Shown: positions 1 through 7,859, counted from the first letter of the stretch. The stretch is 64,000 bases of DNA from Methanobrevibacter smithii ATCC 35061 (GCF_000016525.1 NC_009515.1:770501-834500), one strand, 5' to 3'. The notes: generated from the letters alone by a model not told the origin. A program made the numbers and translations.

Positions 1-478
1 CAACTTTTGTAGTTGTTGAACCTGAATCAATACCTAAAGTAAGGCCTTCCTGTTTTTCACGGGCAAGAATACTTCTACGTGTTACAGTAGTAGCTAGTGC
101 TTCCATACGAATAAACAATTCATCCGCTTTTGTTCTTTCTGTAAATGAATATGTAACTACCGGAATACGGGTATTATCCTGCAGGAATTTACGTACTGCA
201 TTTCTTACAAGAGCTCCTTCTGCACATCTGAAACAGGAAGCAATAAATACTGCATCAGGTTTGCATCTTCCTTCAACAATTGCCATTGCTCTTGCAATCA
301 TTAATTTTAAACTTGAACTTTGAGCAGAAAATCCAAATTTAGCATATGATTCATCAATATAATCCAAATCAATTTCCGGAAGAATAATTTCTGCACCAAA
401 AGTATTAGCTGCTTTTTCAATTTCTTTTTGAATTCCACTATATTCAGTTCCGCATGAAACTAAAGCAATTTTAACCAT
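1..478 (-). CDS. mmp15: Methanogenesis marker protein 15 (partial, C-terminal part outside the window)
   Basis: This is the first 159 residues of a BcrA/HgdC-type activator ATPase of the methanogenesis marker 15 family. Family knowledge: homologues drive ATP-dependent reduction of Fe-S enzymes, and this member occurs only with MCR, so a role in MCR maturation or activation is likely but inferred. Visible are Cys9, Cys72, Cys82 and Cys85 (the last two in CFRC) and, at residues 149-159, the ASKHA phosphate-binding motif [10 protein letters not shown]. The ATG at 478 lies two bases beyond the mmp5 stop, so it is the last gene seen of a minus-strand operon. The remaining two thirds or so of the protein is cut off by the window edge. 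Confidence 0.85.
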
Positions 479-480
479 TA

Positions 481-924
481 TTATTCCTCCTTAAGAGAGT
501 CTAAAAACTCATTAATTTGATTTACCATTAAAAATGTTCCATCCCTATTTTTTGGATATGTAATTTCAAGTATAGGAATATTCCTTTGCCTAAGCAGGAA
601 TATTGACAATTCATTTGTTCTAGCACAACCTACACAACCAAAACCAAATGGAGCACCATCAACTAAAATAGCTGCTTCAGCTTCATCTATCAAAGGACCT
701 ATAATGGACATTCTTCCACGAACACCTGAAGGAACTTCAATAGCCGCGTATTTAAGACCTTTAATCGGGTCTTCTTCAGTAATATTCATTGGAGGAGAAT
801 CAATTTCCGGATCTTTAATTTTTTGCCTTATTTGTTTTTGAAGAACTAAAGGAGTGTGACCTTTCCTTTCAATTAAATCTGCTAAGATTAATGAATTTGG
901 AGGATAAATAGCTACTTTCACCAT
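481..924 (-). CDS. mmp5: Methanogenesis marker protein 5
   Basis: A 147-residue protein of the methanogenesis marker 5 family, conserved in MCR-containing archaea; its biochemical role is not established. It opens with [19 protein letters not shown] and has the motif GFGCVGCAR near residue 95, a possible metal or cluster ligand pair. An upstream in-frame ATG exists at 939, but the ATG at 924 has an AGGTGA ribosome-binding site four bases before it and gives a start that does not overlap mmp6 (four-base gap), so 924 is preferred. It sits between mmp6 and mmp15 in the same operon, which points to a shared task in MCR assembly or activation. Confidence 0.88.
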
Positions 925-928
925 GTTT

Positions 929-1405
929 TCACCTATCATTATTATTTTCTAAACATTCATTCATAATTTTTTTAAATTCATCAACATCAATCGGTTTTTC
1001 AACCTCAACTTCTACATCACGAGGATTTTCCAAAGCATCTGCCACATCACCAAGTAATCTGTATTCATCTTCCATTTGGTGGAAACCTTCTCTTGGTCCA
1101 AATCTGTGGCCTCTGCATCTTCTAGGATCTCCAGGAGCAAAACCTCTTTCTTTTGTGAAAATGTGATTCGGATCCAATTTTCTTATTTCGCGAATCGCTT
1201 CAAAAACATCCTTTGTTTTTCCACTTACCATAGAACCGTAACAGGTATTTTTTATTGTAAGAGGCAAATCAAGCATATGCAACTCATTAACAATTTCACT
1301 TTCACTAACATGAGCTCCAGGAGCAATTATAATCATACGGGTAATTACATCAGGGTCCCAATCTTCCTTATCCAATTCCGGACTAATCGTTAGATTCCTT
1401 AACAT
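929..1405 (-). CDS. mmp6: Methanogenesis marker protein 6
   Basis: A 158-residue protein of the methanogenesis marker 6 family, restricted to organisms with MCR; molecular role unknown. Conserved-looking stretches are [19 protein letters not shown] near residue 24 and a basic segment [16 protein letters not shown] near residue 93. The ATG at 1405 is preceded by GGAGAG seven bases upstream, and this start makes the gene overlap the end of mmp3 by 23 bases, a sign of translational coupling. A later start at the Met of the TRMIII segment would also fit the family core, so the first 20 or so residues are less certain than the rest. Confidence 0.87.
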
Positions 1406-2924
1406 AAACTATCTCTCCATCTTTAAATTTTTCAAGTTTAGAATAATCAGAGACAACTTTACCTAAAATGTTTGTTGAACTAAATGATTCTGCAGTCGGC
1501 CCGAATTCTTTATTATCTTCAAATCTTACTCCGATTAAACCAACATTCTTTGCAGCCATATTAGTTATACCAATTTCGCATGCTTTTACAATATTTTCAG
1601 GAGTATTTTCCGGAACAAGACCTTTTGAAGTATTTGAATCACCTTCAAATATTAATATGTGCATTCCAGGTACTGAAAAATGAACTTTAATTTTACCAAT
1701 CGGCTCTTCCAAAAGACCGGATACTAATTTAAAGTATTTGACCGTTCTTGGAGCATTATCAGTAAAGTTAATTTCACATAAATCATCTTTATGGATGGAT
1801 TTAGTTGTCACTTTTCCCTCATTTAAAATATCAATAGTATATTTTGGAGTCTGCTCTACAATTAAAGCATCCTCGCCAGTTACTCCCTCTTTAATATGTT
1901 CAATGTTTAAACTAGCTAATTTTTCATCAATTTCATTTTGATTATGACCAAGCAACATTAATCTGTCCTGATTAGATTTAATAGTTATAAAATCTCCTTT
2001 TTTAGCTATATCAACAATTTCCATTCCTTTTATGATTTTACCTACATTGGTGTGATTTGGACTTAAAACCCTATTTTCTCTGTAAATATATAATTTTCCA
2101 ACACCCACACCACTGTTTCTCACAGTCACAGTTCCTCTTGTTCTGGAAACGACATTTTCTTTAGGTTTATTTATTCCTTTCAACTCATAAAATCCTAAAA
2201 ATGACTCTGATTCAAAATCAACTTTAATTCTGCCGTCTTTAATAACTGAAAACAGATGCTCAACAGAAACCGGAGAATCATTGTCAACTTCCAGTGAAAC
2301 ATAAGTAAATAACTCATTGCCTTCTTCCAAAACAGTGTCCAAATCAGATACTGCAGAAGAATCTGTAGTTGTGCTTCTCTCAATAATAGGTTCAATAGCT
2401 TTCACTTCATCATCGTCCGTCAGTAAGTTTAAAGTTTTTTTACCACCAATGACTCGTGCAAATATTCCTTTATTAAATGGAGGAACACTGTAAACATTAG
2501 TAGTGTTTTCTTTAATAAGAATTAAATGTGTAGACTCATTACTAAAACTGGATAAACTTAAAACAACATCCCCTTCATAATATTTATACTCTTCAGAAGT
2601 AGGTTCCAAATCAGTAACAACAGGACCAATAGCCACTTCATTTGAAGTTGACCACCTAATAGACAAGTTTTCAAAATCCTTATACTGTTTTTTCCAAACA
2701 TCAACTAAAGGCTGTGCTTCTTTAGTATCAAGAAGTTCCAAAATAACTGATCCTTGCGTTGTTTTAATTTTAAATTTGCTGACATTCTTTTCAAGTTCTT
2801 TTTTACCCTTAATTAAACAGATAATACTGCCGGGAGTGTATGGAGCATTAGATTCATCAATAACATCTTGAATTGTAGAACCTTCTGCTACATTCATTTC
2901 TTCTCCATTAATTTTTATTAACAT
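1383..2924 (-). CDS. mmp3: Methanogenesis marker protein 3
   Basis: A 513-residue protein of the methanogenesis marker 3 (UPF0288) family. Family knowledge: Mmp3 has been reported with McrC, Mmp7 and Mmp17 in the ATP-driven complex that reductively activates the nickel cofactor F430 of MCR. The N-terminus ([20 protein letters not shown]) looks like a ubiquitin-like or MoaD-like fold, and a central portion (about residues 270-330, [19 protein letters not shown]) is the conserved core of the family. A GTG at 2936 is in frame, but the ATG at 2924 follows a GGGAG box by five bases and is chosen. It lies between mmp2 and mmp6 in a single transcription direction. Confidence 0.9.
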
Positions 2925-2981
2925 ATAATCTCCCACAAAGAATTTTAATTAATATATAAATTTTAAAGCTTATAAAAATAA

Positions 2982-3986
2982 TTATTCCTTTTTAGATTTA
3001 AAAACCGGATTGGTTTTTTGATTGAAAACTTCCAGTTTTTCACCATCGCCATTAACCAAATATAAAGAACACTCCCCAGTAACTTCACCGACAACATTTG
3101 CTTCAATAGAATAATCCTTCAAATACTTTTTAATAAATTCACAGTTTTCCTCATTTGCTGTAAATATAAAACCAGAACCAGGATATGATTTTAACCAATT
3201 TTCCCAACTGATATTTTCATTTTTCGGAATATCCTCCAAATTGACAATTGCTCCTTTATCAGATGTTTCAAGCAACATTTCCAAAGTTCCTAAAATACCC
3301 GGATTACTAATATCCTTTCCAGATTTAATATAATCTCTTTCAGCCAAATACTGAACCGCTGTAATTTGGTCCTGAACCAGTTGTTTATCCTTATCATAAG
3401 TAGTGTCCCAATTTAGTTCAAACATTTCATGAGGTTTGCCGTCTAAATCAATAGCAACGATGATTTTATCACCTACTTCTGCTCCAAAGCTAGTGATTAA
3501 TTTATCTTTCTTTGCAATTCCTACAATAGCTACTCCCAAAGAATCAACTTCACCATCAGGATGTAGATGACCTCCAACCATAGGCACACCAAACTTCAAA
3601 CAGCCGTCTTTAATACCTGCCAGTAAATTTTCATAAATTTCATCATGTTTTACTGACATTATATTAACCATAGCCAAGGGTTTTCCACCCATAGCTGCAA
3701 TATCATTTACATTAACAAGAACAGAACAATAACCCGCCCAATATGGGTTAACATTCATTATTTGACCCCATATGCCATCTGCAGCTATTAAAACTACCTG
3801 ATTATTTCCAATATCAATAGCTGAAGCATCATCACCAATGTCAATTACAACATCACCTGAAACATTATATGATTCAGTCAAAAGAGAGGTTACAGTATCA
3901 ATAGAAGACTTACGGGTCACTCCCTCAAATTCTTGAACTGCTTTTACAAGGTTTTTAAAATCTGAAATAAAAACACCATCCATCAT
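2982..3986 (-). CDS. mmp2: Methanogenesis marker protein 2 (AIR-synthase-like)
   Basis: A 334-residue member of the PurM/HypE/SelD/ThiL (AIR synthase-related) ATP-binding fold, methanogenesis marker 2 subfamily. The N-terminal half shows the typical GDDASAIDIG segment near residue 51 and DIAAMGGKPLAMVNIMSVK near residue 112, which matches the metal- and ATP-binding motifs of this superfamily; GVPMVGGHLHPDGEVDS near residue 152 is the second conserved block. Superfamily members phosphorylate or dehydrate small substrates with ATP; the substrate of this one is unknown. It stands four bases downstream of the DUF2117 gene and 57 bases upstream of mmp3. Two adjacent ATG codons (3986 and 3983) leave the exact start open; neither has a strong ribosome-binding site. 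Confidence 0.85.
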   Translation of the reverse strand: MMDGVFISDFKNLVKAVQEFEGVTRKSSIDTVTSLLTESYNVSGDVVIDIGDDASAIDIGNNQVVLIAADGIWGQIMNVNPYWAGYCSVLVNVNDIAAMGGKPLAMVNIMSVKHDEIYENLLAGIKDGCLKFGVPMVGGHLHPDGEVDSLGVAIVGIAKKDKLITSFGAEVGDKIIVAIDLDGKPHEMFELNWDTTYDKDKQLVQDQITAVQYLAERDYIKSGKDISNPGILGTLEMLLETSDKGAIVNLEDIPKNENISWENWLKSYPGSGFIFTANEENCEFIKKYLKDYSIEANVVGEVTGECSLYLVNGDGEKLEVFNQKTNPVFKSKKE

Positions 3987-3990
3987 TTTT

Positions 3991-5124
3991 TTAGATATTT
4001 ATAATATTATATTTGCAATTTAAAAGATTTGTTATTTTAATGATTTCATCCCTAATTTCATCAATATTTTTAGAATTTCTGGATTTGACTAAAATCTTTT
4101 CCTTTTTAAAAATCAATTCAAATATTTTTCTACCAACAACATCATCAGTTCCGCTTTCAAATTCAAATATTATGGAATTTTTAGCTTTAAAACCATCTTC
4201 AACAACTTTATCCAAATCACCATCGGTAATCCCGACAATTGGAATATTGAATCTATATAAAATATCTGAAGCTATTAATGTAGTATCATCTCCAACAGTA
4301 ACTACCAGATCTGCATCCTTAAACTGATAAACATCCTCTCCGGCATGGTCTAGAAAAGCTATTTTAAAAACATCTTCAGATTCATTTTTTTTCAGGACTC
4401 TAGGTTTTACCTTAGATTTTCTTAAAAGCCCTGTTTTTACAATAGCCTTTGCCAAATCAACTCTTCCTAATTTTTCAACACCGTGTTCTTTTATTGTTCC
4501 GCCAATGATTTCTGTAATGTAACCGTCTTTGGCTATCAAAGTGATTTTATCACTATTTGATTTGCCAATAACAATACTGTTAACCATTATATTCTCATCA
4601 GGGCTAACACCATGCACTATTCTTTGAATCTTAGTATCATCTATTTTATCCTGTTTAAAATGATTGTCATAAATTTCTTCAGGAGTGACAATATTCAAAT
4701 CTAATTTTTGAGACAAATCATCGACTAGATTTTTATTATTTCCATTCCATGAAATTATGCTTCCATCACTTTCACCGGGCCTTTCAATTTGAATTACCGG
4801 AATGTTATTTTTATTTATTTTTGAGAGATAATGATTATAAACCTTATAGCCAAAAACCTGACCTGTTACATCAGACTTTCCATAGTTTATTAAAAATATA
4901 ACATCCACATCTGCATCATTGAATAATTTTAAAGAGTCGCTTGGAACTAATTTTTTAGATATGTCAATAATATCTTCTAAAGACCCATCAATAACCGCAG
5001 TTCTTCCCATAGTCCCACCTAATCTGGCTGAAACATCACCATATCCAGATAATAAATTAATTAACTTTAAAGCCCAGTTAGAATCAATAATATTAGGTCC
5101 GTGAACCACTACACCAATTTCCAT
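3991..5124 (-). CDS. DUF2117 family protein, uncharacterised, in MCR-marker cluster
   Basis: A 377-residue protein that I recognise as the DUF2117 family of methanogens; no function is known to me. It begins MEIGVVVHGPNIIDSNWALK and has a motif resembling a nucleotide-binding loop, VVTVGDDTTLIASDILYRF near residue 280, followed by IPIVGITDGD. A similar pattern of Gly-Asp and Thr residues is found in kinases of the NAD-kinase type, but the similarity is short and I would not assign an activity from it. Its stop is four bases upstream of mmp2 and its start 12 bases downstream of nob1, so it is transcribed with the marker genes. That context suggests a role in MCR biogenesis or in its regulation (inference). 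Confidence 0.7.
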   Translation of the reverse strand: MEIGVVVHGPNIIDSNWALKLINLLSGYGDVSARLGGTMGRTAVIDGSLEDIIDISKKLVPSDSLKLFNDADVDVIFLINYGKSDVTGQVFGYKVYNHYLSKINKNNIPVIQIERPGESDGSIISWNGNNKNLVDDLSQKLDLNIVTPEEIYDNHFKQDKIDDTKIQRIVHGVSPDENIMVNSIVIGKSNSDKITLIAKDGYITEIIGGTIKEHGVEKLGRVDLAKAIVKTGLLRKSKVKPRVLKKNESEDVFKIAFLDHAGEDVYQFKDADLVVTVGDDTTLIASDILYRFNIPIVGITDGDLDKVVEDGFKAKNSIIFEFESGTDDVVGRKIFELIFKKEKILVKSRNSKNIDEIRDEIIKITNLLNCKYNIINI

Positions 5125-5136
5125 AAAAACACCGAA

Positions 5137-5637
5137 TTACAATTTTATTCTCTTTTTAAAAACCTTAGATCCGCAAACATCACAATCATCAAAAGGATAA
5201 TTTTCATCAAATTCTTTTTTACAACCTTCACAAACCTTTTTCCAATTGTAAACACCTTTAATTCCATCAGTCATGATTCCGGAATAAGGAATATTAATAA
5301 TTTTTAAAGTATTCTGAATAGTATAATCATCACTTATAACTTTAATATTTTTGCCTTCATCTCTAAGCATTAAAGCTAAAGCTATTAATTTTTTATCAGG
5401 AACAGATAAACGTAAAACATCCCCTGATTTTGATATGATTTCATTAACTTCTTTAATGTATTTTTCACCAACATCCTGAATAATTAATTTTCCATCTCTA
5501 ATAGCCATATCCAATGTTAATTTTGACTCAAAATCTTTAACTTCATGAGTAATCTCAGGAGCAGTATAATTATTATTTGATTCCAAGCCAAAACCGTTGA
5601 TAAAAGCAGATGCATCTAAAACAAAATAAATTTCCAT
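5137..5637 (-). CDS. nob1: Nob1-type rRNA maturation endonuclease (PIN domain plus zinc ribbon)
   Basis: A 166-residue archaeal Nob1, the endonuclease that trims the 3' end of pre-16S rRNA in the small ribosomal subunit. The PIN domain covers roughly residues 1-115, with the first catalytic Asp in FVLDASAFINGF and later acidic positions in the segment KVISDDYTIQN. A zinc ribbon follows at about residues 137-160 (CEGC ... CDVC). Nob1 length and domain order are as usual for archaea. It heads the minus-strand run that continues into DUF2117 and the MCR marker genes; only 12 bases separate it from the next gene. The promoter must lie in the 328-base divergent gap upstream. Confidence 0.88.
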   Translation of the reverse strand: MEIYFVLDASAFINGFGLESNNNYTAPEITHEVKDFESKLTLDMAIRDGKLIIQDVGEKYIKEVNEIISKSGDVLRLSVPDKKLIALALMLRDEGKNIKVISDDYTIQNTLKIINIPYSGIMTDGIKGVYNWKKVCEGCKKEFDENYPFDDCDVCGSKVFKKRIKL

Positions 5638-5965
5638 GATTTTTATTATGATTTTAAAAATTAATAAATATTGTCAAATCCACATAACCCATTAAAAAAG
5701 AGTTATAATCAAGTTATCAACTAATTAACAAAATAATTAAAATTTACATTAAAGTGTACAAAAAATTCTTAAAAATAGCTTAAAAAAGACATGAGTGTTC
5801 AAAAATTTTATTAAAGAATTGGAGGAAAATTGGGAACAAATTGGAGGAAAATTTGATGAAAATTTGAAAAATCTATTTAAATCTGTATAAGAAACTTGAT
5901 ATTATACAATTATTGTACAAAAATTGAAAATTGGAGTACATATTGAAAAATTAAATGAGGCAAAA
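5638..5965. other. AT-rich divergent intergenic region, promoters for nob1 and the regulator operon
   Basis: This 328-base gap separates nob1 (minus) from the regulator operon (plus). It has no plausible gene. It contains two near-identical GGAGG-bearing direct repeats (5817-5833 and 5838-5853), a three-codon open frame ATG AAA ATT TGA at 5856-5867 behind the second repeat, a TATA-like TTTAAATC around 5876-5883, and an imperfect palindrome at 5902-5920 where transcription of the plus-strand operon would be expected to start. Confidence 0.7.
5902..5920. promoter_or_regulatory. Candidate operator palindrome before the regulator operon
   Basis: The core TACAAT-T-ATTGTA (5905-5917) is an inverted repeat with 6-base arms around one central base; TT and AA extend it to 5902-5920 with one mismatch per arm. 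It lies about 25 bases downstream of a TATA-like TTTAAATC and therefore on or next to the likely transcription start. Binding by one of the encoded regulators (autoregulation) is inference. Confidence 0.4.
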
Positions 5966-6757
5966 ATGATGTCAACAAAAGTAGAAAATATAAATCAGAA
6001 AATACAGTTTTTAACAAAGTCTGGAATACGACTCCATATATTAAACATACTAAGTAAAAATCCCCAAAATATAAAAGAATTGGTCAATACAACACAAATA
6101 ACTTATAGTACCCTATCAAGTAATCTCCACAAATTACAGCAAGAAAAATATATTCAGAAAATAAAAAACAAATATTATTTAACCCAAACAACAAAAATGT
6201 ACTTAAATATAATATTAGAGTTTAAAAATGCAATAAAATTAATAAATCAATTTGATGAATTTTGGGATAAGCATGATGTAAAACAGATTAATTTAGATTC
6301 CCTGAAAAATATAACCAGTTTGCATGATTCCCAATTAATTAAAACAACCCCTATTGACATTTATAAAACTCATAATACCATAAAAGGACAGCTATTAATG
6401 TCATACAACATTAAAGCAATATTCCCATATTTACATCCTGATTATCCTGTTATTATTGAACAGGTACTACAAAAAGGAGGTAACGTTGAATTAATAATAA
6501 ATGATGAAATTTTTGAAAGTTTAATGGATAATATAGAAACAGAAATTAAAAAGAAAAGTATTAGAAACGGATGTTTGAAAGTGCATAAGTTAAAAGAGAA
6601 TTTAAACTTATATCTGATTATATCCGATAAAAATACTAATTTGGGACTTTTTAAAAGTGACGGTAGCTTTGATCAGAACAGACTTCTAACATCTGAAAAC
6701 CAGCAAGCCATAAAATGGGCTAATAATCTTTTTGAAAACGTAAAAGCGAATTGGTGA
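5966..6757 (+). CDS. Winged-helix regulator with FilR1-type middle domain (first of a tandem pair)
   Basis: A 263-residue archaeal transcription regulator. Residues about 15-85 form a winged helix-turn-helix (RLHILNILSKNPQNIKELVN, then ITYSTLSSNLHKLQQE as the recognition helix). The remainder matches the FilR1 middle-domain family (formerly DUF1724), with the typical FDEFWDKHD and DIYKTH segments and a C-terminal KWANNLFENV. A TTG at 5924 is in frame, but the ATG at 5966, five bases after GAGG, is the better start. The gene is followed five bases later by a paralogue in the same frame of organisation. Family members are common in methanogens; the ligand and targets are unknown. Lysine, asparagine and isoleucine are strikingly abundant. 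Confidence 0.8.
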   Translation: MMSTKVENINQKIQFLTKSGIRLHILNILSKNPQNIKELVNTTQITYSTLSSNLHKLQQEKYIQKIKNKYYLTQTTKMYLNIILEFKNAIKLINQFDEFWDKHDVKQINLDSLKNITSLHDSQLIKTTPIDIYKTHNTIKGQLLMSYNIKAIFPYLHPDYPVIIEQVLQKGGNVELIINDEIFESLMDNIETEIKKKSIRNGCLKVHKLKENLNLYLIISDKNTNLGLFKSDGSFDQNRLLTSENQQAIKWANNLFENVKANW

Positions 6758-6762
6758 TTATT

Positions 6763-7572
6763 ATGGCAACAAAAATTAAAAATGATTTAAAAGAGGAATA
6801 TCAAGGTATCAAGTATATACTTACATCAACAATGCGAACAAAATTATTATTAAGCATTTATAATGAATCAAAAAACTTAGATGATTTACGAATAGAATTA
6901 GAAAAGCCATCAGCAACAATACTGCATGGTTTAAAAGAATTGGAAAATTTAAATTTTGTTAAAAAAGTTCAAAAATATTATCAATTAACATCAAACGGTT
7001 ATCTGTTAACCACAAACATGATCAAATTAATTGATAACTGGTATGCAACTAACAAAAACGAAGATTTTTGGAATTCCCATGATTTAACAGCCATCCCCCA
7101 AGAAAATCTTAAAAACATTTATCTTTTAAAAAATGCAGAATGTATATCTTCTACAACAAGTAATTTATCAAAAGCTTACAATAGCTACACCAAATTAATT
7201 GAAAATGTCGAAGAATTAAAAATAACATTACCTATTTTTTCAGAAAACCATTTAAGGCAAATTGTTCAATTAATCCAAGAAAAAACACTGCACAAACTTG
7301 AATTAATCACCCACCAGGACATACTGCCATTAATTCATAGAAATCCATTATTTAAAAAATGGCTGATTAATAATGAAAATGTAAAAATAATTTGCATAAA
7401 AAATCCTTTAAAAACCTTTTTAACATTGGGGGATGAATTTATGTCACTTACATTATTTTTTAAAGACGGGCACTACGATGACTCACAAATCCTAATTGAT
7501 AAAACCCATGAAGGATTGAAATGGGGAGCATTATTATATAATCAAACAAAAGAGTGGAGATGGAACCAATGA
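6763..7572 (+). CDS. Winged-helix regulator with FilR1-type middle domain (second of a tandem pair)
   Basis: A 269-residue paralogue of the preceding gene with the same plan: N-terminal winged helix (LLLSIYNESKNLDDLRIELE then SATILHGLKELENL) and a FilR1-type sensor region with DFWNSHDLTAIP and a C-terminal KWGALLYNQT. The ATG at 6763 has GGTGAT just upstream and begins five bases after the previous stop; a TTG at 6751 would overlap the previous gene and is not preferred. Its stop overlaps the start of the next gene in ATGA, so the three regulators are translated in series. Tandem duplication followed by divergence is the simplest history. Two paralogues with one promoter could form a heteromer (inference). 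Confidence 0.8.
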   Translation: MATKIKNDLKEEYQGIKYILTSTMRTKLLLSIYNESKNLDDLRIELEKPSATILHGLKELENLNFVKKVQKYYQLTSNGYLLTTNMIKLIDNWYATNKNEDFWNSHDLTAIPQENLKNIYLLKNAECISSTTSNLSKAYNSYTKLIENVEELKITLPIFSENHLRQIVQLIQEKTLHKLELITHQDILPLIHRNPLFKKWLINNENVKIICIKNPLKTFLTLGDEFMSLTLFFKDGHYDDSQILIDKTHEGLKWGALLYNQTKEWRWNQ

Positions 7573-7859
7573 CAATTAAAAAGTTACTTCACCAAATCTT
7601 TTTAAAAAGAAAAGGAGGAAAAACTTCTGCAAAAATTGTAGATTTGCTGCTGATACGCCCATATAACGGAAGTCAGATAGCAAGAATCATAGAAATGGAT
7701 TACAATACTATTGAATACCATTTAGAGATTTTATGCAAAAGCAAATTAGTAATGTGTGAATCTGACAGCTATGGTTCATTATACTATCCTACAGATTTAC
7801 TGCTAAAAAATCATGAAGAATACGAAAAAATAAAAGAGATGATGACAATAACTGCATAA
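7569..7859 (+). CDS. Small ArsR-like winged-helix protein
   Basis: A 96-residue protein consisting of almost nothing but a winged helix-turn-helix: AKIVDLLLIRPYNGSQIARI, then DYNTIEYHLEILCKSKLV as recognition helix and GSLYYPTDLLL as the wing end. No sensor domain is present. The ATG at 7569 overlaps the TGA of the previous gene by four bases and has a GGAG box nine bases upstream inside that gene, so translation is coupled. A GTG at 7554 is also in frame but overlaps more. As a DNA-binding module without an effector domain it could be a co-regulator for the two larger proteins or an ArsR-type repressor in its own right. Confidence 0.75.
   Translation: MTIKKLLHQIFLKRKGGKTSAKIVDLLLIRPYNGSQIARIIEMDYNTIEYHLEILCKSKLVMCESDSYGSLYYPTDLLLKNHEEYEKIKEMMTITA

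Follow-up and report, generated by a model that had tools for sequence, protein, structure and literature searches.

The DUF2117 gene that lies ahead of the methanogenesis marker genes in Methanobrevibacter smithii belongs to a protein family confined almost wholly to MCR archaea, and we propose, with a probability of about 0.5, that its product assists, as an accessory factor, in the maturation or reductive activation of MCR. The association of this gene with the marker cluster is real, and is now one step better supported than the sequence alone allowed. An accessory role fits best because DUF2117 is not among the subunits reported to co-purify with tagged McrC, and because some methanogens are without it.

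The window, by which we mean the whole 64,000-nucleotide stretch of DNA analysed, spans bases 770501-834500 of a 1,853,160-base single-contig genome, and opens with the following genes:

5137..5637, minus strand: nob1-like gene (PF17146, E 2.6e-14; NF009145, E 3.7e-85)
3991..5124, minus strand: DUF2117 gene, 377 aa (PF09890, E 3.1e-130)
4062..4389, minus strand: C-terminal GGDGT-like domain of DUF2117, residues ~246-354 (from conservation, hhalign and an AlphaFold2 model)
2982..3986, minus strand: mmp2, an AIR synthase/SelD/ThiL-like protein (TIGR03267, E 1.4e-128)
1383..2936, minus strand: mmp3 (TIGR03268, E 8.6e-188), with a GTG start at 2936
929..1405, minus strand: mmp6 (TIGR03272, E 7.6e-45)
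481..939, minus strand: mmp5 (TIGR03271, E 1.5e-72)
2..478, minus strand: mmp15, the first 159 of 413 aa inside the window (TIGR03286, E 5e-209 for the whole protein)

The earlier note on this DNA had described seven minus-strand genes, from nob1 to mmp15, with gaps of 2-57 bases or overlaps, and both the coordinates and the profile matches bear this out. The gaps are 12 bases between nob1 and DUF2117, 4 between DUF2117 and mmp2, and 2 between mmp5 and mmp15; mmp3 and mmp6 overlap by 23 bases and mmp6 and mmp5 by 11, whilst the gap between mmp2 and mmp3 is 45 bases with the GTG start or 57, the upper figure of the note, with an ATG at 2924. Profile searches show the nob1-like product to be a PIN-domain nuclease with a C-terminal CxxC...CxxC zinc ribbon, and the whole mmp15 product also matches the acyl-CoA dehydratase activase model TIGR00241 (E 5e-96), in agreement with its description in the note as an activator-type ATPase. 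The window edge cuts mmp15, and beyond it lie the rest of this gene, mmp17 (TIGR03291) and a NifB-type radical SAM gene.

A similar arrangement recurs across the Methanobacteria, where DUF2117 heads the run mmp2-mmp3-mmp6-(DUF2111)-mmp5-mmp15-mmp17-nifB. The DUF2111 gene sits between mmp6 and mmp5 in Methanothermobacter, Methanothermus and two other Methanobacteria, and is missing from this position at the present locus, where those two genes overlap. In all 30 Methanobacteria loci sampled mmp2 lay directly 3' of DUF2117, and in 27 of them nob1 lay upstream (within 1.5 kb), so the arrangement is not due to chance. The mmp3-to-nifB part of the run is already published: a 2025 cryo-EM paper on the MCR activation complex reports the M. 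marburgensis cluster MTBMA_c04360-c04410, then nifB, and makes the case that the iron-sulfur clusters for activating MCR probably come from NifB (PMC12176620). The ProPhylo study had described an extended cluster in which six marker genes stand with component A2 (PMC3226654), and Kaster et al. list methanogen-specific proteins including NifB, SelD-like and peptidyl-prolyl-isomerase-related proteins (PMC3087415); DUF2117 is not named in the available portions of any of these three papers. Gao and Gupta (2007) included MMP0143 (COG4069) among methanogen-specific proteins (PMC1852104). MMP0143 and Mmp3 (MMP0154) are 11 genes apart, and a separation of 10-11 genes between DUF2117 and mmp3 was observed in two genomes belonging to the Methanococcus phylum; given this matching distance, we infer that MMP0143/COG4069 is probably DUF2117. 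COG4022 (MMP1644) was also considered and ruled out by its gene position. A full-text literature search found no functional paper on DUF2117, and its placement ahead of the mmp cluster, together with the DUF2098 link described below, appear new within the literature searched.

The earlier note had further suggested a coupling of MCR to growth, which would here involve Nob1 and the maturation of ribosomes, a reading favoured by the close spacing of the two genes here and by the 27 of 30 Methanobacteria loci in which nob1 is upstream. Nob1, however, is an ordinary archaeal ribosome factor, and its adjacency to DUF2117 is confined to the Methanobacteria. Even within this class, in Methanothermus, nob1 lies 670 bases from DUF2117 with an opposite-strand open-reading frame between them, and when we counted family matches within 4 kb of DUF2117 in 121 genomes (a set that takes in one Methanobacteria genome), nob1 was near DUF2117 outside the Methanobacteria in a single genome, on the other strand. 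Growth coupling is therefore not supported and appears extremely improbable, and we take the Nob1 neighbour to be incidental.

The phyletic distribution, by contrast with growth coupling, carries the link to MCR that the note had proposed. Among the Methanobacteriota, 145 of 152 genomes carry DUF2117, including 90 of the 91 of good quality; the Methanococcus phylum has it in 35 of 36 genomes, and a set of MCR-positive genomes chosen across orders by an mcrA motif in 30 of 42. Its presence extends to Methanomassiliicoccales, Methanomethylicota, ANME and MCR-bearing Archaeoglobales. Among 14 named control genomes the two methanogens alone carried it, and a scan of a viral collection found no relative. 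Among 393 evenly drawn Halobacteriota genomes, 208 carried DUF2117, 219 McrA, 179 both and 145 neither, an association with an odds ratio of 22 (P ~3e-40) in counts that are uncorrected for shared ancestry. The 29 genomes with DUF2117 and without McrA include 15 with McrG and 11 more with Mmp5, which look like incomplete assemblies; three are left, so that 205 of the 208 positives carry McrA, McrG or Mmp5. Similarly, in Thermoproteota DUF2117 was present in 26 of 300 genomes, of which 24 carry McrA and another carries Mmp5 (25 of 26), and in Thermoplasmatota it exceeded the cut-off in 9 of 243, eight of the nine with McrA. The wide occurrence in organisms without MCR that the note had named as refuting its idea was therefore not observed. 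The converse does not hold to the same degree: DUF2117 was absent from 40 of 219 McrA-positive Halobacteriota (18%; present in 179, or 82%), and was not found in the Methanomethylophilaceae, Methanocorpusculum and Methanimicrococcus genomes of the MCR-positive sample. The family is thus essentially absent from non-MCR archaea, as an MCR-restricted marker would be, and is not present in all MCR archaea, as such a marker would also be. An appreciable number of MCR-positive genomes do without it, so MCR does not depend on it and it can be lost.

Gene context outside the Methanobacteria connects DUF2117 to the activation machinery in part. In 19 of the 121 genomes DUF2098 lay directly upstream of DUF2117, against ~0.4 expected, always on the same strand and in nearly all 19 cases overlapping it or separated by at most 15 bases. 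Ten of these neighbours were confirmed as PF09871, and named examples of the pair include ANME-2c, Methanothrix and Methanotrichaceae; all 19 cases fall in one phylum (Halobacteriota) and may represent one ancestral arrangement. The coupling is significant since DUF2098 is a small protein that belongs, as a subunit of solved structure, to the activation complex: McrC co-purifies with Mmp3, Mmp7, Mmp17, component A2 and DUF2098, and grips DUF2098 by one of its loops (PMC12176620), a source which also confirms the place given to Mmp3 in this complex by the earlier note. Single cases add to the picture. In one Methanomethylicota genome mmp15 lies 34 bases downstream of DUF2117, at locus L143 mcrA, mtr genes and DUF2117 form a single same-strand run, at the Halobacteriota locus L228 the mcr operon is 2.1 kb away, at L352 a true mmp2 lies 0.6 kb away on the opposite strand, and in Methanococcus mmp3 is ~11 kb distant. 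The Methanobacteria operon, the DUF2098 coupling and the Methanomethylicota mmp15 together place DUF2117 beside genes for MCR activation in separate lineages. The want of co-occurrence with mmp genes in other orders, which the note had named as refuting, applies in most orders though not in every one: beyond the Methanobacteria the neighbours are mostly unrelated and variable. Several apparent neighbours were set aside: the radical-SAM genes near DUF2117 outside the Methanobacteria that had been labelled 'nifB' were all discarded after checks on two of them identified MoaA and an enzyme of the heme-synthesis type, the 'mmp2' at L332 is ThiL and was likewise discarded, and that at L240 (E 3e-58) was too doubtful to count.

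The absence of mmp linkage in most orders, and the L143 run in which DUF2117 adjoins mtrH, would also suit a gene of the wider methane pathway (e.g. Mtr), or a general gene of methanogens, simply carried along in the Methanobacteria mmp operon. We regard this as rather unlikely, since DUF2117 is present in Methanomassiliicoccales and Methanomethylicota, which are described in the literature as being without Mtr, and in ANME and MCR-bearing Archaeoglobales, and since it is coupled to DUF2098.

The protein itself matches PF09890 over positions 1-324 of 325 (434 bits against a cut-off of 25), although this name, a domain of unknown function, assigns it to a family only. It consists of an N-terminal alpha/beta part, a beta-rich middle and a C-terminal GDDTT domain that resembles the kinase superfamily. 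In an alignment of 68 diverse members, H8, G37, R168, G278, D280, T281, D301 and D303 are invariant, whilst D14, A43, D46, S62, G183, G187, D279 and T282 and, towards the C-terminus, R291, D305, S317, D327, D328 and G331 are nearly so. The C-terminal domain thereby carries a near-invariant signature, GDDTT...TDGDxD...DD, which includes D301-x-D303-x-D305 and D327-D328. The kinase-like Gly-Asp loop that the note had placed near residue 280 corresponds to G278-D279-D280-T281-T282, and conservation, the NAD_kinase profile and hhalign point to a GGDGT-like loop. The NAD_kinase profile (PF01513) reaches E 5e-4 on the window protein (20.8 bits, below its cut-off of 25.5), matches 44 of the 68 members (best E 2.2e-5) and exceeds the cut-off in a few Methanobacteria relatives at 25-26 bits; when the C-terminal profile was aligned by hhalign with 83 E. 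coli proteins, NadK ranked first (32.8) and PfkA second (22.9). Judged from these alignments, the invariant D280 would correspond to the catalytic Asp of NAD kinase, with GDDTT in place of GGDGT. DUF2117 is not itself an NAD kinase; its profile score falls below the cut-off, and NAD kinase is encoded by another gene of the same genome.

Structure prediction went further with the C-terminal domain than with the whole protein. An AlphaFold2 model of residues 246-377 built from a two-sequence alignment (pLDDT 74, pTM 0.71) shows alternating strands and helices, and a Foldseek search with this model gave no match at E <= 0.001; the full-length model from two sequences (pLDDT 52) gave no usable fold match, and a PDB profile search with DUF2117 returned nothing significant. 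In Methanomethylicia-type genomes a paralogue consists of the N-terminal and middle parts only, behind a different N-terminal domain, so that the kinase-like lobe, which it is without, is a module. By eye, the VGDDTT...ITDGDxD of DUF2117 also resembles the LGTSTT...YDGDRAG of DnaG, and the Toprim_2 profile matches two of the 68 members (best E 0.0013), which would make the C-terminal domain a TOPRIM domain and DUF2117 a protein that acts on nucleic acid. However, DnaG ranked only 10th of the 83 background proteins where NadK was first, and whilst the DxD (D301, D303) is invariant, the first strand, where the catalytic-Glu column is expected, holds no invariant Glu, and we consider a TOPRIM domain highly improbable.

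Given a kinase-superfamily-like lobe and the confinement of the family to MCR archaea, DUF2117 could instead be a kinase in the biosynthesis of an MCR-specific cofactor, for example one that completes coenzyme B (7-mercaptoheptanoylthreonine phosphate) by ATP-dependent phosphorylation, rather than an activation factor acting on protein. We know of no enzyme assigned to this phosphorylation, and several of the lineages without DUF2117 are recorded as gut-associated, where cofactors could be scavenged. Against such a kinase, the coupling to DUF2098 and the mmp genes points to the activation machinery, and of the kinase fold DUF2117 recognisably has only the nucleotide-binding half; on balance we hold a cofactor kinase to be unlikely.

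The preferred reading, an accessory factor of MCR maturation or activation, can be set beside the nearest known systems. Like the MCR activation complex (McrC, Mmp3, Mmp7, Mmp17, component A2 and DUF2098), DUF2117 is confined to MCR archaea, and is encoded with genes of the complex in the Methanobacteria and, in some of the Halobacteriota, next to DUF2098. Unlike the subunits of the complex, it is missing in some MCR-positive lineages and is absent from the proteins reported, in the available portions of PMC12176620 and PMC9584954, to co-purify with McrC in M. maripaludis preparations, with which a transient role is still compatible. It shares its confinement and its Methanobacteria run with the methanogenesis marker proteins (TIGR03267, 03268, 03271, 03272, 03286, 03291), but no NCBIfam marker model covers it, it is less universal, and it is mostly unlinked outside the Methanobacteria. 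With the superfamily of NAD kinase, phosphofructokinase and diacylglycerol kinase it has in common the near-invariant G-D-D-T-T at the GGDGT position and the leading ranks of NadK and PfkA, but only one lobe is recognisable. The candidacy of DUF2117 in MCR maturation put forward in the note is thus supported by the phyletic pattern and the DUF2098 coupling, and is unsupported for the part concerning growth.

Mechanistically, the C-terminal domain may, on the strength of its motifs, bind ATP or another nucleotide with Mg2+, in which case D280 would be a candidate catalytic or metal-binding Asp. DUF2117 would then act transiently, e.g. by loading, modifying or releasing the DUF2098-McrC arm or by supplying a phosphorylated ligand, and its absence from the purified complex is the reason to favour a transient partner over a stable subunit. 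The most specific form of this proposal, that DUF2117 is the missing nucleotide-dependent factor which acts together with DUF2098 to prime or reset the activation complex, or else produces a phosphorylated ligand specific to MCR, is decidedly speculative and in our estimate quite improbable; it would explain why the complex needs an artificial strong reductant in vitro.

Activation of the MCR nickel cofactor is a central question of biological methane. The published activation complex is probably short of factors needed in the cell, and additional Mmp proteins are expected to be necessary in vivo (PMC12176620). In Methanobrevibacter, DUF2117 might serve as a specific target in efforts to reduce methane from the gut, although its absence from some methanogens means that it can be dispensable.

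Within the window, mmp6 and mmp5 overlap at 929-939 with no DUF2111 between them, whereas in other Methanobacteria DUF2111 occupies that place. The same genome carries an additional, more divergent mmp5 gene:

G000:C1:1110499-1110981, second mmp5 (PF09885), outside the window, E 2.3e-31

Upstream of nob1, beginning 286 bases away, three regulator-like ORFs lie in succession at window 5924-7859, divergent from the cluster; by eye they appear to be of winged-helix type.

Elsewhere, in the MCR genome Dive100_bin4.136 (locus L143:1-7882), a single strand carries mcrA, a series of mtr genes and DUF2117 one after another. Several large Halobacteriota genomes (G561, G308, G470, G508, G547, G559) have at least two DUF2117 copies, the maximum among such multi-copy genomes being five matches in one genome. 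In one genus of the same family as the window genome (G022-G040), DUF2117 spans ~1,200-1,250 bases rather than ~1,000, and the reading frames containing it reach 825 codons; these lengths suggest a large insertion or fusion.

Methanomethylicia-type genomes encode a second protein that matches the DUF2117 profile only over the profile's initial ~two-thirds. In front of this part stands an N-terminal domain similar to ChrB_N/Cas2-type ferredoxin folds, and a CBS-domain gene adjoins the protein's gene. Four loci are listed; further ones exist.

Partial DUF2117 proteins, Methanomethylicia-type genomes
L263:6369-7319
L262:7391-8431
L267:7346-8257
L260:7353-8324

Beyond the window edge, the cluster is extended by mmp17 and then a NifB-like radical SAM gene (L031 is a locus of the window's own genome):

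L031:6233-7725 (genome bases 768232-769724), mmp17 and NifB-like radical SAM gene, just outside the window

NifB has been proposed as the probable maker of iron-sulfur clusters needed in MCR activation (PMC12176620), and the NifB-like gene found here agrees with this published role.
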